Shown: piece by piece, positions 1-8,545 of the stretch | Layout: every line of letters begins with the position of its first letter | How positions within the stretch are numbered: the first letter of the stretch is position 1 | From: Limnobacter thiooxidans | GTDB lineage: Bacteria; Pseudomonadota; Gammaproteobacteria; Burkholderiales; Burkholderiaceae_B | DNA: 64,000 nt | Assembly: GCF_036323495.1 (NCBI RefSeq) | Contig: NZ_AP028947.1 | Location: forward strand, 1,674,001-1,738,000 | Direction of reading: 5' to 3' | Notes under the pieces: generated by a model | Database searches by the model: none | What the model was told of the DNA's origin: nothing | The model's input: only the letters and a program-made list of their open reading frames with translations | Program-made: the position numbers and the translations under genes

Positions 1-463
1 GCACCACAATCCAGGCCCCGGCATCTGCAATCTGCCTGGCCGCTTGAACAAACACAGAAGAGGGCACACCATTTTGATGAAAGGAATCTGTGCTCAAGTA
101 CACAGTGCAGCACGATTCAAGTACTGACCTGATCCAAGGCGCAGTCTCCGGACTTTTCGCCCAAACACCACTGGTGTAAATCACAATCGATTTGTTGCAG
201 GCCGACATTGCTTCGCAGGCCTTGGTTAGCCCACGCCGTTCAGAAAAAGGCTCTCCGCCAGAAATGCCCACGACCTGAATGTCGGGGTCACCACAAATGC
301 CATCAAGCAAGTTCTCGAATAGGCCAAAATCCGTGATCATTGGGCTGTCTGCGCGGGAGTCGACCGAGCAATGGGCACAACCTACCGGGCAACGGTCTGT
401 AATAAACAACAGAACGGAATTCCCCCGTGTGCGCCGTGCAATCTCAATGTCGTTGTGTTTCAT
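1..463 (-). CDS. radical SAM protein, second enzyme of a RiPP-like locus (3' end outside window)
   Basis: The reading frame starts at ATG 463-461 and stays open to the window edge, giving 154 codons of a longer gene. The N-terminus has the radical SAM iron-sulfur motif CPVGCAHC (Cx3Cx2C, residues about 25-32), followed by the SAM-binding GGE motif in GISGGEPFS (about 66-74). Both place it in the radical SAM superfamily, where a 4Fe-4S cluster cleaves S-adenosylmethionine to start radical chemistry. It begins 4 nt after the stop of the upstream radical SAM gene, so the two are probably translationally coupled. The N-termini of the two enzymes resemble each other, suggesting paralogues. The substrate is not visible; a peptide substrate is inferred from the small gene at the head of the operon. 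The C-terminal half, which would show any SPASM or other accessory domain, is missing. Confidence 0.85.
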   Translation of the reverse strand, partial: MKHNDIEIARRTRGNSVLLFITDRCPVGCAHCSVDSRADSPMITDFGLFENLLDGICGDPDIQVVGISGGEPFSERRGLTKACEAMSACNKSIVIYTSGVWAKSPETAPWIRSVLESCCTVYLSTDSFHQNGVPSSVFVQAARQIADAGAWIVV

Positions 464-467
464 GGCA

Positions 468-1532
468 TCAGGCACCCAACAGAACCAGTTCCGCAAAACG
501 CGGGTGACTGTAGCGCTTCGCAAAACCCACTGCGCCCAGTTCAAGCTGCAAATCCACCACCGAATCGCCCAGTATTCTTGCGCCCGGTTTCAGCATTTGG
601 GAACTTACGCCCACTTGAATCGCATCCTGTGCATCAAGGTTGATGCAGGTGTCGCAGTAGCCTTTGCAGCCCGTCTTGCCCTGACTGCCGAATTTGGTTT
701 GCAGGTACTCTGGCCCATAGGTTCTCAGTGCAATTTGCATGGCGTTGTCAACGCAACGCGACCGAATGTCCGCCCAGCTGTGAATGCGAATATCCCCAAG
801 CCTTAAATGGCTTGGAACCCGCCCGATCAAATTGTCATTTCCGCAAGCAGCCACTACCCCGTCAAAACCAACCACAGGCCAGGCCGCCATGGTGCAGGGG
901 CTTGCCTCTACCGTCGTTGTGCTTGGTGATGCAGTTTGAATGAAGAAGGTTTTCGCCCTGCCAAAAGGTGACAGGGTATTGACCAGCATCGGGATGCGCT
1001 TGCCAAAGCGCTTTTGAACGAGATTCACCAAATCGTCCAGGTACGGATCGTCTTCTCTTTCGCCAGCGATGTGCAGGCTCAAGTGCTTTCCCTCATCCAA
1101 TAATTGATTTAAAACAGTAAACACGTTCGAGCGGGGAACTTCACGCTCATGAAATGCATCCATGCTGACCGAGAAATGATCCACCGCATCGATTGCAGAT
1201 TTGATCGATTTGGGAATGCCAGGCTTTCGCGCAAAAAAAAGCCCTGACAGCACACTGGACTTGGTGCCCGATGCGCGCGCCTTCAACGCAAGATTTTTCA
1301 CCAGTGCAGGTCGAAGCAGGGCTTCACCACCCGACATGGCCATGAATTCCGGGTGAGAAGCTTCAGTAAATGTGTCAACAAACCGATTGAACAATTCGGG
1401 TCGGCTTTGCTCGCTTTGCATGGTCGAGCTTGTTGAACAATGGGCACAGCTTAGGGGGCAACGCCGTGTAATGCCAACTGAAACTCCGGCGGCGGGTACT
1501 GCACGACGAGCAAGCATTTCGACAAGGTGCAT
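468..1532 (-). CDS. radical SAM protein with SPASM-like C-terminus, candidate peptide maturase
   Basis: A 354-residue protein. The motif CPLSCAHC (Cx3Cx2C, about residues 25-32) binds the radical SAM 4Fe-4S cluster and SGGEALLRP is the GGE motif. The C-terminal third carries further cysteines: a CTMAAWPVVGFDGVVAACGN segment and GCKGYCDTC. This resembles the auxiliary-cluster SPASM/twitch domains of peptide-modifying radical SAM enzymes. SPASM proteins commonly install C-C or C-S crosslinks, or decarboxylate, in short precursor peptides. It lies 91 nt downstream of the 74-residue candidate precursor and 4 nt upstream of a second radical SAM gene. No strong Shine-Dalgarno precedes ATG 1532, so the start could be a few codons off. 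Membership of the superfamily is clear; the RiPP role is inferred from context. Confidence 0.85.
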   Translation of the reverse strand: MHLVEMLARRAVPAAGVSVGITRRCPLSCAHCSTSSTMQSEQSRPELFNRFVDTFTEASHPEFMAMSGGEALLRPALVKNLALKARASGTKSSVLSGLFFARKPGIPKSIKSAIDAVDHFSVSMDAFHEREVPRSNVFTVLNQLLDEGKHLSLHIAGEREDDPYLDDLVNLVQKRFGKRIPMLVNTLSPFGRAKTFFIQTASPSTTTVEASPCTMAAWPVVGFDGVVAACGNDNLIGRVPSHLRLGDIRIHSWADIRSRCVDNAMQIALRTYGPEYLQTKFGSQGKTGCKGYCDTCINLDAQDAIQVGVSSQMLKPGARILGDSVVDLQLELGAVGFAKRYSHPRFAELVLLGA

Positions 1533-1566
1533 GGTGATTCACTGGCGGACAAGCGGGTGGAGGGGT

Positions 1567-1598
1567 GGGGCATTGAAGCAAATTGCATCCAATGCCCC
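1567..1598 (-). promoter_or_regulatory. perfect inverted repeat between precursor gene and radical SAM genes
   Basis: GGGGCATTG (1567-1575) and CAATGCCCC (1590-1598) form a perfect 9-bp stem with a 14-nt loop in the gap between the peptide gene and the first enzyme gene. No U-tract follows on the minus strand, so it is not a classical terminator. A partial-termination, processing or mRNA-stabilising hairpin that makes the peptide message more abundant than the enzyme message is common after small precursor genes. That role is inferred here. Confidence 0.55.
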
Positions 1599-1623
1599 GA
1601 TTGAACAATGGGTTCAGATCAAA

Positions 1624-1848
1624 CTACCAAACAAATCCACCCACAGTGTCCGCAGCATTCTTTAGCTTTTCGTCCAGCCCTGAATTCAACTTCGACTTGA
1701 TGCTGGTTAACACCGCCAACTCATCATCATCGAGCTTGGCTACCTGAGCTTTCAAATTGTCGCTTAGTGCATCCAGCTGGAATGCGGCTCCAGTGGCTTT
1801 GACGCGCATTGATCGAGCAGAACTCATACCTGTTTTTTCATCAGACAT
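1624..1848 (-). CDS. candidate RiPP precursor peptide, 74 aa, ends VGGFVW
   Basis: A 74-residue peptide preceded by a clear Shine-Dalgarno (AGGGG at 1859-1855, 6 nt before the ATG). The N-terminal two-thirds is charged and predicted helical, with LDALSDNLKAQVAKLDDDEL and SIKSKLNSGLDEKLK stretches typical of leader peptides. The C-terminus is short and quite different: ADTVGGFVW. It contains a Gly-Gly that could be a leader cleavage point and two aromatic residues flanking a valine. It has no cysteine. It is the first gene after a promoter, followed by two radical SAM genes. I do not recognise the family. The precursor role rests on size, leader/tail asymmetry and context. It could instead be an unrelated small helical protein. 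Confidence 0.65.
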   Translation of the reverse strand: MSDEKTGMSSARSMRVKATGAAFQLDALSDNLKAQVAKLDDDELAVLTSIKSKLNSGLDEKLKNAADTVGGFVW

Positions 1849-1898
1849 AACAATCCCCTATTGGTGTAGTTGACGCATTGAAAAACAATGCCCAATAA

Positions 1899-1927
1899 GT
1901 TGTACGCCGGGCAGGTTAACCCGTCAA
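1899..1927 (-). promoter_or_regulatory. sigma70-type promoter for the radical SAM/peptide operon
   Basis: On the minus strand TTGACG (1927-1922, 5 of 6 to consensus) is separated by exactly 17 nt from TACAAC (1904-1899, 4 of 6). This would start transcription about 45 nt upstream of the peptide gene. It is the only good match in the gap between the rne terminator and the peptide start, so the locus probably has its own promoter rather than reading through from rne. Confidence 0.55.
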
Positions 1928-2042: not shown

Positions 2043-5000
2043 TCAGTTCGCGCTGCTCTTGAACTCCGGCTTGGTTTCGATCAACACCAGGTTTTCAGTT
2101 GAAATTTGAACAACAGGCTTGCGCTCCCGGGGAACGCGAGCAGGCTTTGTGGATTCGCTCAATTTCGACTGAACAACAGACCACTTTTCGTGGTCGGTTT
2201 CAACCCAAAGCATTCCGGCACTGTTCAGCATTTGCTCAAGTGAGGTTCTGTCCAGCTTTGGCGCTGGGGCAGGTGCACCCTTTTGAACGTTGGCTTCAGT
2301 TGCTGCCACTGTTGCTGCTGGCGCCGTTACGGGCGCTTTTACTTCGGCTGCAGGCTCAGCAATTTCAGCAGGTGCTGCAGTTTCCACCAACGCGGCTTCT
2401 ACTTTCTCTACAGCAGCCAAGGTTACTTCAGCCACAGGCGCGCTTTGAACCGATTCAACCACCACGGCTTCAACAGCTGGGGTTGGCTCGGTCGCCAAGG
2501 CCTCCTGTTGAACCTCGGTTTTTGCAGGCTCTACTTCAGCAGTTTGTGCCACTGCAGCGATAACAGACTGAACGGCCTGCACGTCTGCCGATTGAACATT
2601 CGACTCATCGGGATTGTTTTCAGTAGAACCCATTGCTGTAGGTTCAGCTGGCAAGCCCATTTGAGAGACATTCAAGCCGGTTGCTGCAATAACGGGAGCG
2701 GGTGCGGAAGCTGTTTCAGCCATCTCAGGTGCTGGTGCTGATTCAACTGAATCGCTGCCTTCAGCGGCTTGTTCAGCGTCCGATGAATCACGAACGCCAT
2801 CCCGATTACCTCCGCGACCACGGCGACGACGACGGCGACGCGGCTCTTCGCTACCCGCTTCTTCTTCGCTGCCATATGACATGGTTTCGGCAATCTTGTT
2901 GGCCAATTCTTCATCTTCAGCTGCATCGGCTGCCTGAAATGCGTCTTCAGACTGCAATGCAGACTGTTCAGCCGCCAAGCCTGTTTCACCTTCACCGGCT
3001 CCGCGACCACCACGGCCGCGACGACGGCGGCGACGACCACCAGTGCGTTCACTTTGCTCTGCAGCATCTGCTGCATCGCCTTCCACTGCATCTACAGCGG
3101 CCAAAGGCTTCAATTCAAGCGCTTCGGCACCCGCAGCGCGGTCCTCACGTGGTTTGCCACGACCACCACGATTCTGTTGTGCAGAACGAGGCTGTTGTGT
3201 GTCAGCTACCTTGACTTCGTCTTCCGCAACTGGGTTTGTACCCGTTGCTTCATCTTCGCGTCCACGTCCGCCACCACGACGGCGATTTCGTCCACGACCA
3301 CCGCGTGAGTCGTTGCGGTCACCTTGTGGGCGACCTTGGCCACGACCTCCACGGTCACTGGTTTTCTGCTCGATCACCACTGCTGGTACTTCCACATTGG
3401 TATCGCGCTTGAACCAAGCAATAATGCGCTGAATCAAAGACGGTGCCGCAGGGGCAGCAGCAGCCACAACCAGTTCTGTTTTTGGCTTGCGTTCCTGATG
3501 GGGCGGGGCAGGCTGGGTTGGAATCACACCCTTGATTACCGCTTCCTGACGCTTTACTGCTTCGCCTTCCACTTTCTTGTCGTAGTAACTTTGCTCGTCC
3601 TTGGAGGTGGCCAGCTCGAAGCTCTGGCGTGGGTCTTCAAGGCGCTCATCGTCATGGCGAAGGCGTGTAATCTCGTAATGTGGAGTTTCCAGATGCTTGT
3701 TTGGAATCAACAGCACGTTGACCTTCAAACGCGCTTCCAGCTTGTAGATTTCAGACCGCTTTTCATTCAGCAAGAAAGTGGCCACATCCACCGGCACCTG
3801 CGTGTGAACGCTGGCAGTGCCTTCTTTCATGGCTTCTTCCTGCAAAATACGCAGTACGTGCAATGCCGTGCTTTCTGTATCGCGAATAACACCCGTGCCA
3901 TTGCAGCGTGGGCAAGTGGTGTGCGAGCCTTCGTTAAGGGCAGGGCGGATACGCTGGCGGCTCAATTCCATCAGGCCGAAGCGGCTGATTTTGCCCATTT
4001 GCACGCGTGCGCGGTCAAAATGAAGGCTGTCCTTGACTCGTTGCTCCACTTCCTTCTGGTTGCTGGCTTTTTCCATGTCGATAAAATCGATCACGATCAA
4101 GCCGCCCAAGTCACGCAGGCGCAACTGGCGGGCTACTTCTTCAGCCGCTTCAAGGTTGGTGCGCAAGGCCGTGTCTTCAATGTCTGTGCCGCGTGTTGAA
4201 CGGGCCGAGTTCACATCGATGGACACCAGCGCTTCCGTGTGATCAATCACAATGGCGCCGCCCGAGGGCAGGGGAACCATGCGGCTGTAGGCCGTTTCAA
4301 TCTGGTGTTCGATCTGGAAACGGCTGAACAACGGAATGTCGTCGCGGTAGCGTTTTACCAGGTTCATCATGTCGGGCATGACATGCTGCATGAACTGCTT
4401 GGCCTGGTCGTAAATTTCGTCGGTGTCGATGAGTACTTCGCCAATATCCGGGCTGAAGTAATCGCGAATGGCACGAATCACCAGGCTGCTTTCCTGGTAA
4501 ATCAGGAAGGCGCCGTTGGCCGATTTGCCAGCACCGTCAATGGCTGTCCACAGTTGGAGCAGGTAATTCAGGTCCCACTGCAGTTCTTCAACCGAGCGGC
4601 CGATACCGGCTGTGCGGGCGATGATGCTCATGCCCTTGGGGTATTCCAGCTTGTCCAGCGCTTCACGCAGTTCTTGACGTTCTTCGCCTTCGATTCTGCG
4701 GGATACACCGCCTCCGCGGGGGTTGTTGGGCATCAGCACCAAGTAGCGGCCTGCCAGGGAGATGAAGGTAGTCAGGGCTGCGCCCTTGTTGCCACGCTCT
4801 TCTTTTTCGACCTGAACAAACAGTTCCTGACCTTCTTTTACGACGTCTTGAATGCGGGCTTTGCCGGCTTCAACACCTTCCTTGAAATACTGACGGGAAA
4901 TTTCCTTGAATGGCAGAAAACCGTGGCGGTCTTCGCCGTAATTGACGAAACAGGCTTCGAGACTGGGTTCTACGCGGGTAATGACACCCTTGTAAATGTT

Positions 5001-5538: not shown

Positions 5539-6546
5539 TTGAAAACACAGGAAAAACCCAACCCCGACAGGGCTGTTCTGCTTGAAATTGACGAAAAACA
5601 TCAAGACCAGCGTCTCGACAATTTCCTGTGCAGTGTTTGCAAAGGTGTACCCAAAAGCCACGTATTCCGTATTATCCGGTCCGGTGAAGTTCGCATCAAC
5701 CGAAAGCGGGCAGAAGCGAAAACCAAATTGTGCATTGGCGATGTGGTTCGGGTTCCCCCCATTCAGGTGGTGGAAAAACAAAGCCTTGAATCAACGCCTT
5801 CAAGCGCTTCATTCAACAAGGTTCAGCTGTTGAATGCCGCCGCCGCAATCCCCATCCTTTTTGAAGACGAACATCTGCTTGTGGTGAACAAACCATCCGG
5901 CATGGCCGTTCACGGTGGCTCAGGGTCGTCATTTGGTTTAATTGAATGTATTCGGGCACTTAGATCGGAAACTCACCAGGATCTCGAGCTTGTCCACCGA
6001 ATTGATCGTGAGACTTCTGGAGTATTGATCATTTCCAAAAAACGTAGTGCTCTTAGGAAGTTACAGGAACAACTTCGAGCCAGATCCTGGAAAAAGTATT
6101 ACAAAACACTGGTGCTGGGGCATTGGCCTGAGAGCTTGCGTCAGGTCGATCTGCCCTTGTTGAAAACCCAAAGCAACGAAAAAGAAGCCCGTGTTTTTGT
6201 GGACCCATCAGGTGATAACGCCTGTACCAAATTCAAGACTATTCAATGTTATAGGTCCCTATATTCAGAATTCACTTTAATTCAGGCGCAAATCCTGACA
6301 GGTCGAACCCATCAAATTCGTGTGCACACCAGTGCGAGCAAGTTTCCGATCGCCGGGGACGACCGATACGGAAATTTCGAGATGAACAAGCAATTGGCGC
6401 GACACGGGCTAAAACGCATGTTTTTGCACGCCGCACGCCTGCAGCTGGTACACCCGGCTACAAATGAATCTATAGTAATAGAGGCGCCTTTGGCCGCTGA
6501 ATTAGACAGTTTTTTACAAACCTTACAGGCAGTAAACCGCAAATGA
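5539..6546 (+). CDS. rluC: 23S rRNA pseudouridine synthase, RluC/RluD type
   Basis: A 335-residue enzyme that converts specific 23S rRNA uridines to pseudouridine. An S4 RNA-binding domain occupies about residues 24-72 and the RluA-type catalytic domain follows. The active-site motif HRIDRETSG (153-161) contains the catalytic Asp156, and GRTHQIRVH is present near the C-terminus. The gene lies divergent to rne, the arrangement known for rluC. No ATG lies in frame before residue 122, so the start is taken as TTG 5539 with only a weak Shine-Dalgarno; a stop codon 12 nt upstream limits any extension. The stop overlaps the next start by 4 nt (ATGA). Confidence 0.92.
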   Translation: MKTQEKPNPDRAVLLEIDEKHQDQRLDNFLCSVCKGVPKSHVFRIIRSGEVRINRKRAEAKTKLCIGDVVRVPPIQVVEKQSLESTPSSASFNKVQLLNAAAAIPILFEDEHLLVVNKPSGMAVHGGSGSSFGLIECIRALRSETHQDLELVHRIDRETSGVLIISKKRSALRKLQEQLRARSWKKYYKTLVLGHWPESLRQVDLPLLKTQSNEKEARVFVDPSGDNACTKFKTIQCYRSLYSEFTLIQAQILTGRTHQIRVHTSASKFPIAGDDRYGNFEMNKQLARHGLKRMFLHAARLQLVHPATNESIVIEAPLAAELDSFLQTLQAVNRK

Positions 6547-7205
6547 CTTACAAAATGGTGGTGTTTGATTGGGATGGCACCATACTGGATTCAACCGGCG
6601 CAATTACTCGGGCCATTCAAGGTGCCTGCGTGGATGCCGGTTTGCCAGATCCTGGCGCAGAAATCGCCTCCTATGTGATTGGTCTGGGCCTGAGTGACGC
6701 CCTGCGTCACGCAGCACCTGGCGCAAGCGAGCAACAAATTGCCATGTTGGTCGATAGTTATCGGCGGCACTACCTGAGCAACGACCATGAGCTTGAGTTG
6801 TTCACCGGCGCAATACCCTTGCTGAAACAGCTCAATGAAATGGGCGTGATTTGCACAGTAGCCACCGGAAAAAGTCGACAAGGCTTGAATAGGGCCATGT
6901 CACATTCCGACACGGGTCGCTACTTCATGGGTTCCCGGTGTGCAGATGAGTGCCACAGCAAGCCTCATCCTCAAATGATTCTTGAATTGATGGAAGAATT
7001 TGACACGGATCCGGCCGATGTCGTCATGATTGGTGACACCACGCATGACCTTAACATGGCAAACGCTGCCGGCGTGCATGCACTGTCGGTGCAAACAGGC
7101 GCGCATCCGCCCAAATTGCTGAACCAGGTGCCTCACCTGCAATCTTTTCATTCCATCAACGAGTTGGCGCCCTGGTTGGTGAAAACCATTTCTTCAAGAC
7201 TCTGA
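6543..7205 (+). CDS. HAD-superfamily phosphatase (HAD-IA)
   Basis: A 220-residue phosphatase of the haloacid dehalogenase superfamily. Motif I is DWDGT (residues 9-13, nucleophile Asp9), the motif II threonine lies in VATGKS, a lysine lies in SKPHP, and the acidic motif IV is GDTTHDLNMA. The family hydrolyses small phosphometabolites; phosphoglycolate phosphatase-like annotation is common for this neighbour of rluC, but the substrate cannot be read from sequence. It overlaps rluC by 4 nt and precedes the Rieske gene by 2 nt, so all four genes to sppA look like one operon. Confidence 0.88.
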   Translation: MTYKMVVFDWDGTILDSTGAITRAIQGACVDAGLPDPGAEIASYVIGLGLSDALRHAAPGASEQQIAMLVDSYRRHYLSNDHELELFTGAIPLLKQLNEMGVICTVATGKSRQGLNRAMSHSDTGRYFMGSRCADECHSKPHPQMILELMEEFDTDPADVVMIGDTTHDLNMANAAGVHALSVQTGAHPPKLLNQVPHLQSFHSINELAPWLVKTISSRL

Positions 7206-7207
7206 TC

Positions 7208-7585
7208 ATGTCTCAAATTCAAGTATGTCAATCAAGCGACCTGTCTGAAGGTGGCATCGGTTACCGTTTCAGGGTGCTGTATAACGGTGAGGAAACCACA
7301 GCCTTTGCCGTACGGGTCGACAACGATGTGCGCTGTTTTCTCAATCGCTGCTCACATGTTCCCGTTGAGCTAGACTGGAATTACGGCGAATTTCTCGATG
7401 ACTCCGGCCGAATCATTGTTTGCGCAACCCATGGCGCCAGTTATGACGCCACTGATGGCAACTGCCTTGGGGGCCCCTGCAGCGGAAACCCTTTGGTCAG
7501 ATTGGCCATCGAAGAAAAAGACGGTGCTGTGTACTGGACCCCTTCCGAACAAATTACGGTGCCCGCTGATGGCATTGAGGACTAG
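7208..7585 (+). CDS. Rieske [2Fe-2S] domain protein
   Basis: A 125-residue single-domain Rieske protein. The cluster ligands are visible as CSH (Cys48-x-His50) and CATH (Cys72-x2-His75), the Cx1H...Cx2H pattern of Rieske ferredoxins and dioxygenase components. No partner oxygenase is nearby; it sits between the HAD phosphatase and sppA with almost no spacing. An electron-carrier role is likely, but the redox partner is unknown. Confidence 0.88.
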   Translation: MSQIQVCQSSDLSEGGIGYRFRVLYNGEETTAFAVRVDNDVRCFLNRCSHVPVELDWNYGEFLDDSGRIIVCATHGASYDATDGNCLGGPCSGNPLVRLAIEEKDGAVYWTPSEQITVPADGIED

Positions 7586-7588
7586 AGA

Positions 7589-8545
7589 ATGAGCGAAGAA
7601 AACAATCAATGGGAGCGCAAGTTGCTCGAAAAGCTGGCTTCTGAATCTTTGGTCGAGCAACGGCGCAAACGCCGCTGGGGTATTTTCTTCAAACTCATCG
7701 GCGTGGCTTATGTAGGTATCTTGATTGCCTCGGTTATGGGGTTGGCCAGCGCACCCGGGCTAGAGGTTAGTCGTCACACCGCCTTGGTTAACCTGGATGG
7801 GGTCATCGCAACCGATACGCTCGCCAGCGCTGATCGAATCAACTCCAGTCTTCGCGCTGCATTTGAAAGCGAGCAGTCTGTTGGAGTCATTCTGCGCATC
7901 AACAGCCCCGGGGGTAGCCCGGTACAGGCAGGATTAATCAATGACGAAATTGAACGCCTGCGTGCCAAATATCCGGCCAAACCACTCTATGCCGTGGTTG
8001 AAGAGGTGTGTGCCTCGGGTGGATATTACATCGCTGCAGCGGCAGACAAGATTTACGTGGACAAGGCCAGCCTGGTGGGTTCAATTGGCGTCGTCATGAA
8101 CGGCTTTGGTTTCACGGGCACGATGGAAAAGCTGGGAGTAGAGCGTCGCCTGATCACCGCTGGTGAAAACAAGGGTTTTCTGGATCCTTTCAGTGCGGCA
8201 GACCCCTATCAAACCGAATTCGCCAAACAAATGGCCGAAGAAATCCACCAGCAGTTCATCGCTGTTGTTAAAGAAGGGCGCGGGGACAAACTCTCCAACA
8301 ATCCTGAACTGTTCAGTGGCCTTGTGTGGACTGGAGCAAAAAGTGTGGAGCTTGGCTTGGCGGACGAACTGGGTTCCATTGATACCGTGGCCCGTGATGT
8401 CCTGAAGGCCGAAGAAATTCTGGATTACACCGAGCAGGATTCTTTCGCAGAACGTTTTGCGCAACGGGTGGGTGTGGTGTTCGGCATGGGAATTCGCAGT
8501 GCGTTTCCTGAATTTGGCACCAGTCAACGGGTTGGGTTTCAATAA
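7589..8545 (+). CDS. sppA: signal peptide peptidase SppA-type, S49 family
   Basis: A 318-residue inner-membrane serine protease that degrades signal peptides after they are cleaved from secreted proteins. One membrane segment lies at about 33-51 after a basic N-terminus. The nucleophile region CASGGYYIAAAADKIY contains Ser143, and the probable catalytic Lys lies in ITAGENKGFLDPF. The length fits the short (36-kDa, single-domain) SppA class. It is the last gene of the rluC operon. A small hairpin (CGCTGG 8566-8571/CCAGCG 8580-8585) just after the stop may act as a weak terminator. Confidence 0.92.
   Translation: MSEENNQWERKLLEKLASESLVEQRRKRRWGIFFKLIGVAYVGILIASVMGLASAPGLEVSRHTALVNLDGVIATDTLASADRINSSLRAAFESEQSVGVILRINSPGGSPVQAGLINDEIERLRAKYPAKPLYAVVEEVCASGGYYIAAAADKIYVDKASLVGSIGVVMNGFGFTGTMEKLGVERRLITAGENKGFLDPFSAADPYQTEFAKQMAEEIHQQFIAVVKEGRGDKLSNNPELFSGLVWTGAKSVELGLADELGSIDTVARDVLKAEEILDYTEQDSFAERFAQRVGVVFGMGIRSAFPEFGTSQRVGFQ

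Follow-up and report, generated by a model that had tools for sequence, protein, structure and literature searches.

Functionally validated heme-oxygenase-like diiron oxidases (HDOs) number about a dozen, and the substrates of those characterised are for the most part fatty acids or amino acids, according to the available text of a review (PMC13108848). CADD acts on its own residues and MboA on a ligase-made peptide (available part of PMC13185094). In the thiovarsolin pathway, which yields a ribosomally synthesized and post-translationally modified peptide (RiPP), deletion of varO points to an HDO-like dehydrogenase (PMC6511847, as far as its available text goes), and the same paper is the ribosomal-peptide case of the HDO review (PMC13108848, available text). 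Here we describe an operon at the left end of a 64,000-nucleotide stretch of a Limnobacter genome (G000:C1:1674001-1738000, on a 3.54-Mb contig; the window), in which an HDO gene accompanies a ribosomal precursor gene. The minus-strand gene order is a 74-amino-acid (aa) precursor, two radical S-adenosylmethionine (SAM) proteins, rSAM1 and rSAM2, and the HDO, which lies outside the window, left of its edge. The four genes almost certainly form a RiPP cassette. The cassette probably makes a modified peptide, with the enzymes acting on the last few residues of the precursor.

The individual components resemble described systems to different degrees. Among solved proteins, EpeE (YydG) comes closest to both radical SAM proteins in sequence and to rSAM1 also in fold, and rSAM2 keeps its CysCys pair. 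However, both proteins fall under the cut-off of the EpeE family model, rSAM1 of the window has no donor Cys and the Limnobacter cassette adds an HDO. The HDO is similar in fold to UndA and CADD, and its candidate set of three His and three carboxylates fits that of UndA, CADD, AetD and MboA. VarO of thiovarsolin is likewise a heme-oxygenase-like enzyme in a RiPP pathway (PMC6511847, available text), but thiovarsolin comes from a YcaO-TfuA pathway with repeating cores, and none of the four Limnobacter genes belongs to those families. Mycofactocin likewise combines an aliphatic-aromatic C terminus with a radical SAM enzyme, though of another family, and its partner genes are absent from the Limnobacter operon. 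A C-terminal nitrile is made elsewhere by an asparagine synthetase-like enzyme (PMC13060819, available text). The nearest relatives of the precursor are the NF045560 proteins, many from named Streptomyces and Kitasatospora, which share with it a leader above the cut-off, an aromatic C terminus and, in the loci studied, adjoining rSAM1 and HDO genes. The Limnobacter locus differs from these in having rSAM2 and the end GGFVW, and there is no core Cys to justify the "sacti" of the family name. The leader family carries an NCBI name, but the literature searches turned up no account of its pairing with an HDO and one or two EpeE-like enzymes. The papers listed contained neither the term "aroma-sacti" nor a description of this system, which subscription papers might hold. 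In the cassette, one short core with a fixed C-terminal place across phyla would be the shared target of EpeE-like radical SAM enzymes and of an iron oxidase that depends on O2. The Limnobacter version comprises only a few small genes, within reach of co-expression.

The cassette and its precursor peptide

A protein search with rSAM1 returned 771 relatives at E <= 0.001. The locus comparison covers 81 loci from several phyla, the best 80 of 104 rSAM1 relatives from genome contigs plus the window locus. Hidden Markov models (HMMs) built from chosen members initially matched rSAM2 in 26, the HDO in 75 and the precursor in 76 of these loci, and follow-up of the misses raised the HDO to 78 and the precursor to 77. 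A short precursor with a conserved leader and a short core is found beside modifying enzymes in many genomes. The cassette is a real and widespread one of RiPP type with an apparently uncharacterised pathway, for which the enzyme families suggest a mechanism. A first-pass annotation of the window had called the locus RiPP-like and reported two radical SAM genes in it. The wide conservation agrees with this, but the commonest partner is the HDO encoded outside the window, and rSAM2 occurs in 26 of the 81 loci.

The precursor gene (1624..1848, minus strand) is supported by its open reading frame (ORF) and by the match of its product to the NCBIfam model NF045560, "aroma-sacti cluster domain" (36.9 bits, curated cut-off 30). 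The first-pass annotation had correctly reported a 74-aa peptide with a short aromatic tail; it had not recognised the family, which is a catalogued one. The peptide has an NF045560-type leader, contains no Cys anywhere and ends in ADTVGGFVW. The HMM gave 82 precursor matches in 76 loci, including a weak one in L095 (15 bits). The last residue is aromatic in 82/82 (F 58, W 23, Y 1). Gly stands at -5 in 81 and at -4 in 71 precursors, and Leu or Val at -2 in 73, so that the ends are mostly Gly-Gly-x-x-aromatic and usually Gly-Gly-x-aliphatic-aromatic. There are 20 distinct C-terminal pentapeptides; GGALF accounts for 50 precursors, all from loci without rSAM2, and the Trp ends go with rSAM2 in 23 of 23 cases. 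This search was biased towards aromatic ends by its seeds and by a training filter that required W, F, Y or H as the last residue, so a leader-only profile lacking the last 16 residues was searched as well. It gave 81 matches, all at most 40 aa from the C terminus, with the final residues F 57, W 23 and Y 1, and is only a partial control because its training set came from an earlier search round.

Several loci encode more than one precursor with differing ends, namely four in L053, three in L042 and two in L051. The four of L053 (12104-13048, Nonomuraea deserti) and the three of L042 (4986-7464, Kitasatospora indigofera) lie in a row. The precursor gene precedes the enzyme genes in some loci and follows them in others. 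Against solved structures, the best match of the precursor profile was an engineered cytochrome construct (E 0.0045), taken as chance.

Occurrence across genomes

Within the genus, rSAM1 is present in five of 16 genomes including the window's own (G000, G007, G009 and G015, with a fragment in G010), and two of the carriers besides the window genome are a Limnobacter sp. and Limnobacter parvus. One locus, L038, is nearly identical to that of the window. The loci that the HMMs first missed are of several kinds. In L049, the HDO and precursor lie ~10 kb further on (L124), and in L070 and L117 the contig stops at rSAM1. Neither HDO nor precursor was found by HMM in the flanks of L054, and no precursor was found in L059.

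Linkage was also followed from the precursor side. Eight named genomes, chosen for holding such loci, were searched whole with NF045560, and all 12 matches coincide with cluster precursors, that of L049 lying beside the distant HDO. Among 296 genomes around and including Streptomyces alfalfae (G450), rSAM1 was found in three at E <= 1e-15, as four genes that each have an NF045560 match within ~2.1 kb. NF045560 exceeds its cut-off in four of the 296, the fourth (G724, 35.1 bits) being without rSAM1. Streptomyces alfalfae itself carries two convergent clusters on NZ_QEXM01000043.1 (L045 and L108) with precursors ~7 kb apart, one cluster with and one without rSAM2, and with the ends SGAFVW and IGGVLF. 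Among 398 genomes of the window's phylum, its own included, NF045560 is above cut-off in G000 and G386 (31.8 bits in the latter), and rSAM1 reaches E <= 1e-15 in G000 and G435. The rSAM1 of G435 is distant (60.4 bits), with no precursor match in the 10-kb stretch examined.

Two Pseudomonadota genomes, G386 and G375, have no rSAM1 genome-wide at E <= 1e-15 and each hold an HDO next to a small peptide. In L125 (G386:C12:18000-28000), the HDO gene (246.7 bits) is divergent from that of a 57-aa related peptide ending RPMMF (3866-4855), with no rSAM1/2-type match in the 10-kb stretch; an 870-aa cyclase/ATPase/TPR protein follows the pair. In L147 (G375:C10:82000-96000), a 60-aa peptide ending GIVI, an HDO (190 bits) and a papain-family peptidase stand in a row (5989-7879), with no rSAM1/2-type match in the 14-kb stretch. 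L147 may be a variant that brings its own protease and does not end in an aromatic residue. The first-pass annotation would have counted finding the peptide in many genomes away from radical SAM genes against its reading. These two loci are cases of that kind, yet in both the peptide remains beside an HDO.

The heme-oxygenase-like enzyme

Extension of the contig to the left of the window, as suggested in the first-pass annotation, recovers the rest of rSAM2 and then the HDO gene (G000:C1:1672785-1673498, minus strand), whose TTG start overlaps the rSAM2 stop. The 237-aa product scores 31.8 bits against PF14518 (iron-containing redox enzyme), above the cut-off of 28.9. A structure was modelled on the L038 protein, which is identical to the HDO of the window genome at 227 of 237 residues. 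The model (predicted local distance difference test score, pLDDT, 96.5) has a heme-oxygenase-like fold, with 3dde (of unknown function), CADD and UndA as the top matches. Six residues, E93, H96, E150, H179, D183 and H186, are kept in 66, 61, 66, 66, 65 and 66 of 66 sequences, respectively. As a candidate, this set fits the three-His/three-carboxylate set given in the available text of the HDO review (PMC13108848). In the same text, the substrate ligates Fe1 in five substrate-bound HDO structures, and the fatty acid of UndA is bound through its carboxylate (PMC13108848). In L055 and L087, HDO and rSAM1 share one reading frame as a fusion. HDO relatives occur in 85 of the 398 genomes of the phylum (E <= 1e-8), and since all but three places score <100 bits, these matches belong to a broader family. 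A second, more distant HDO-like match is found in the window genome itself (G000:C1:2334117-2334659, 86.2 bits).

The radical SAM enzymes

The rSAM1 gene (468..1532, minus strand) encodes a 354-aa EpeE-like radical SAM protein with a CxxxCxxC motif plus four later Cys that are invariant in alignments. What the first-pass annotation called SPASM-like cysteines is better described as EpeE-like. The rSAM2 gene begins as that annotation proposed, its ATG (463-461) 4 nt past the rSAM1 stop codon (470-468). Its 5' part occupies 1..463 of the window on the minus strand, and the gene, encoding 322 aa in all, runs left to G000:C1:1673495. EpeE (8ai1-8ai6) is the best relative by sequence in the PDB for the profiles of both rSAM1 (E 1.5e-13) and rSAM2 (E 1.2e-18). 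The rSAM1 model (pLDDT 89.3) has EpeE chains as all nine of its best Foldseek matches, with template modelling scores of 0.59-0.67 by query and 17-19% identity in the fold alignment.

Cys223 is the proposed hydrogen donor of EpeE in the available text of PMC8326336, and the PDB titles of EpeE structures mention a C223A mutant. The rSAM2 CysCys pair aligns with that of EpeE (8ai6, 8ai1) and is kept in 26 of 26 loci. Window rSAM1 instead has Gly231 at the position of EpeE Cys223, so it has no donor Cys beside the cluster Cys. Over the 81 loci, this rSAM1 position holds Cys in 63 and other residues in 18. Among loci without rSAM2, an absence that is unsure in L070 and L117 where the contig ends, Cys is found in 53 of 55, the exceptions being L058 and L095. 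Of the 26 loci with rSAM2, 12 have Gly at this position, 10 have Cys and two each have Pro and Ser. At least one donor-Cys enzyme is encoded in 79 of the 81 loci. That rSAM1 always lacks the donor Cys was considered and rejected; it holds in alignment A1 (31 Gly and 1 Ala of 32) and is wrong across the family. With that column excluded from the tree, the donor-Cys trait changes six times, with five changes when counted over 25 rows with rSAM2 and two over 53 without. This suggests, with due caution about shared ancestry, that rSAM1 may lose the donor Cys more easily once rSAM2 is present. Such natural variation could help to show what decides the fate of a peptide Cα radical.

Proposed pathway and alternative explanations

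We suggest a pathway in which the conserved leader would recruit at least some of the enzymes. At a core residue, rSAM2 would abstract the Cα hydrogen, and the second Cys of the enzyme would return one from the other face to give a D-residue; we lean modestly towards such epimerisation. rSAM1 of Limnobacter, without a donor Cys, would run a Cα-radical step that does not end in epimerisation, a tentative assignment whose chances we put a little short of even. The diiron HDO would ligate its substrate in the manner of characterised HDOs, here through the free carboxylate at the C terminus, and oxidise the last residue by desaturation, oxidative decarboxylation or Trp rearrangement. A final residue with a free carboxylate would suit an HDO whose substrate ligates the iron, and action of the HDO on the C-terminal residue is somewhat favoured. 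Leader release would need a peptidase encoded elsewhere. As a whole, a RiPP cassette with these steps is the best explanation we can offer, and we hold it with modest confidence.

Several points weigh against this pathway. Family scans of the four operon genes found no peptidase, exporter or RRE. Both radical SAM proteins score far below the cut-off of 300 of TIGR04078 (YydG/EpeE), at 46.1 bits for rSAM1 and 43.5 for rSAM2. A division of labour does not hold generally, since 10 of the 26 rSAM2 loci have a donor Cys in both enzymes. In L058 and L095, rSAM2 is absent and rSAM1 has no donor Cys. The association of Trp ends with rSAM2 was set aside as proof, being confounded by ancestry. rSAM2 changes twice on the tree, and the end residue is the same within both independent pairs. 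The weakly matching L147 peptide (22.6 bits) is the one non-aromatic end seen. The six conserved HDO residues are presumed metal ligands on the basis of a weak alignment to CADD (E 0.044). According to the available text of PMC8326336, the leader seems dispensable for the known epimerases of these kinds, which argues against recruitment of rSAM2 by the leader. In two HDOs, HrmI and CADD, the reaction with O2 proceeds with no substrate as ligand (PMC13108848, available text).

The aromatic ends might instead indicate a redox cofactor of the mycofactocin or pyrroloquinoline quinone type, in which rSAM1 would oxidatively decarboxylate the C-terminal aromatic residue and join it to the neighbouring aliphatic one, and the HDO would oxidise the fragment. 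This idea suits the 73 of 82 precursors that carry Leu or Val at -2 and the F, W or Y at -1 in all of them, and mycofactocin formation involves Tyr decarboxylation and a bridge to the adjacent Val (PMC8326336, available text). We consider it unlikely, as rSAM1 scores 15.0 bits against the mycofactocin model TIGR03962 (cut-off 265), its fold match is EpeE, no RRE, MftD or MftE was found among the four operon genes in family scans and the final residue is Tyr in one precursor of 82. Mycofactocin and sactipeptides, which the first-pass annotation gave as example classes, both fit poorly. A true sactipeptide has next to no probability, even though "sacti" is part of the NF045560 name and there is a weak match to the StsA-related NF045559 (13.7 bits, cut-off 75), because the last 20 residues are free of Cys in 81 of 82 precursors, as is the whole window precursor, which leaves no core Cys for a Cα-thioether. 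The same annotation named three-residue cyclophanes, whose motif is an aromatic residue followed by two further residues. Radical SAM enzymes are present, Phe72-Val73-Trp74 of the window precursor fits the motif and an aromatic residue stands at -3 in 14 of 82 precursors. Yet the final residue is the sole aromatic of the last 15 in 59 of 82 and the closest solved enzyme, EpeE, is not a cyclophane synthase, which leaves such a crosslink highly improbable.

Rather than a precursor, the 74-aa protein could be a small subunit that partners or regulates the enzymes, given a leader part conserved over phyla and an operon without peptidase or exporter. The several precursors with differing ends in L042, L051 and L053, and the varying position of the gene before or after the enzymes, make this very unlikely. 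Backbone scission from the Cα radical of an rSAM1 without donor Cys would suit an operon without a peptidase, and peptide breakage was reported upon mutation of EpeE Cys223, but we see very little likelihood in it. A different view of the cassette is a separate, so far unrecognised RiPP class, in which the constant maturase would be a diiron HDO oxidising the last residue via its free carboxylate, with EpeE-like radical SAM enzymes as add-on modules. Near the HDO/peptide pair there are no genes for such enzymes in the stretches examined of L125 and L147, one in most Streptomyces loci and two in Limnobacter. We regard a separate class as less likely than not.

Operon layout and neighbouring genes

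A predicted RNA hairpin lies in the gap between the precursor and rSAM1 genes (1567..1598, minus strand; folding z-score), and its stem GGGCAUUG/CAAUGCCC is predicted in all three Limnobacter species folded (window, L039 and L040). The z-scores of the intergenic stretch are -4.22 in the window and -3.05 in L039, both strong, and -1.06 in L040, which is weak. The stem was not seen in Mesorhizobium L043 (z -1.50), the sole other genus folded, and an Rfam search of L016 16000-20000 gave no match. The promoter of the first-pass annotation is not borne out, as a scan of 1530-2060 gave one promoter-like site, inside the precursor gene, with 0.8 expected by chance. The first ORF past the HDO to count as a gene runs convergently and scores as lipase-like (23.4 bits, cut-off 20.3), and the operon therefore seems to end after the HDO. 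Searches of phage and defence libraries returned nothing beyond weak matches to radical SAM proteins in general or to viperins.

Nine flanking genes and a few others were scanned. Neighbouring ORFs of at least 130 aa were clustered over 32 of the 81 loci, and eleven clusters besides the core occur in at least three loci. Pfam, run on one member each of six of these clusters, identified cyclase/ATPase regulators (18 loci), BTAD regulators (15), a LuxR-type regulator (3), two clusters of MFS transporters (4 loci each) and a prolyl oligopeptidase (3 loci, median ~7.6 kb upstream). In Mesorhizobium (L043 10782-12467) and Jannaschia (L112 10774-12357), the gene after the HDO encodes a protein that combines DUF6817 with an aspartyl/asparaginyl beta-hydroxylase domain and is perhaps a further tailoring enzyme. 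In the window and L. parvus (L039), a long ORF adjoins the cassette, which we take by eye to resemble RNase E. The cassette neighbours in L040, a Limnobacter metagenome-assembled genome, differ from those in the window and L039, which hints at movement within Limnobacter.

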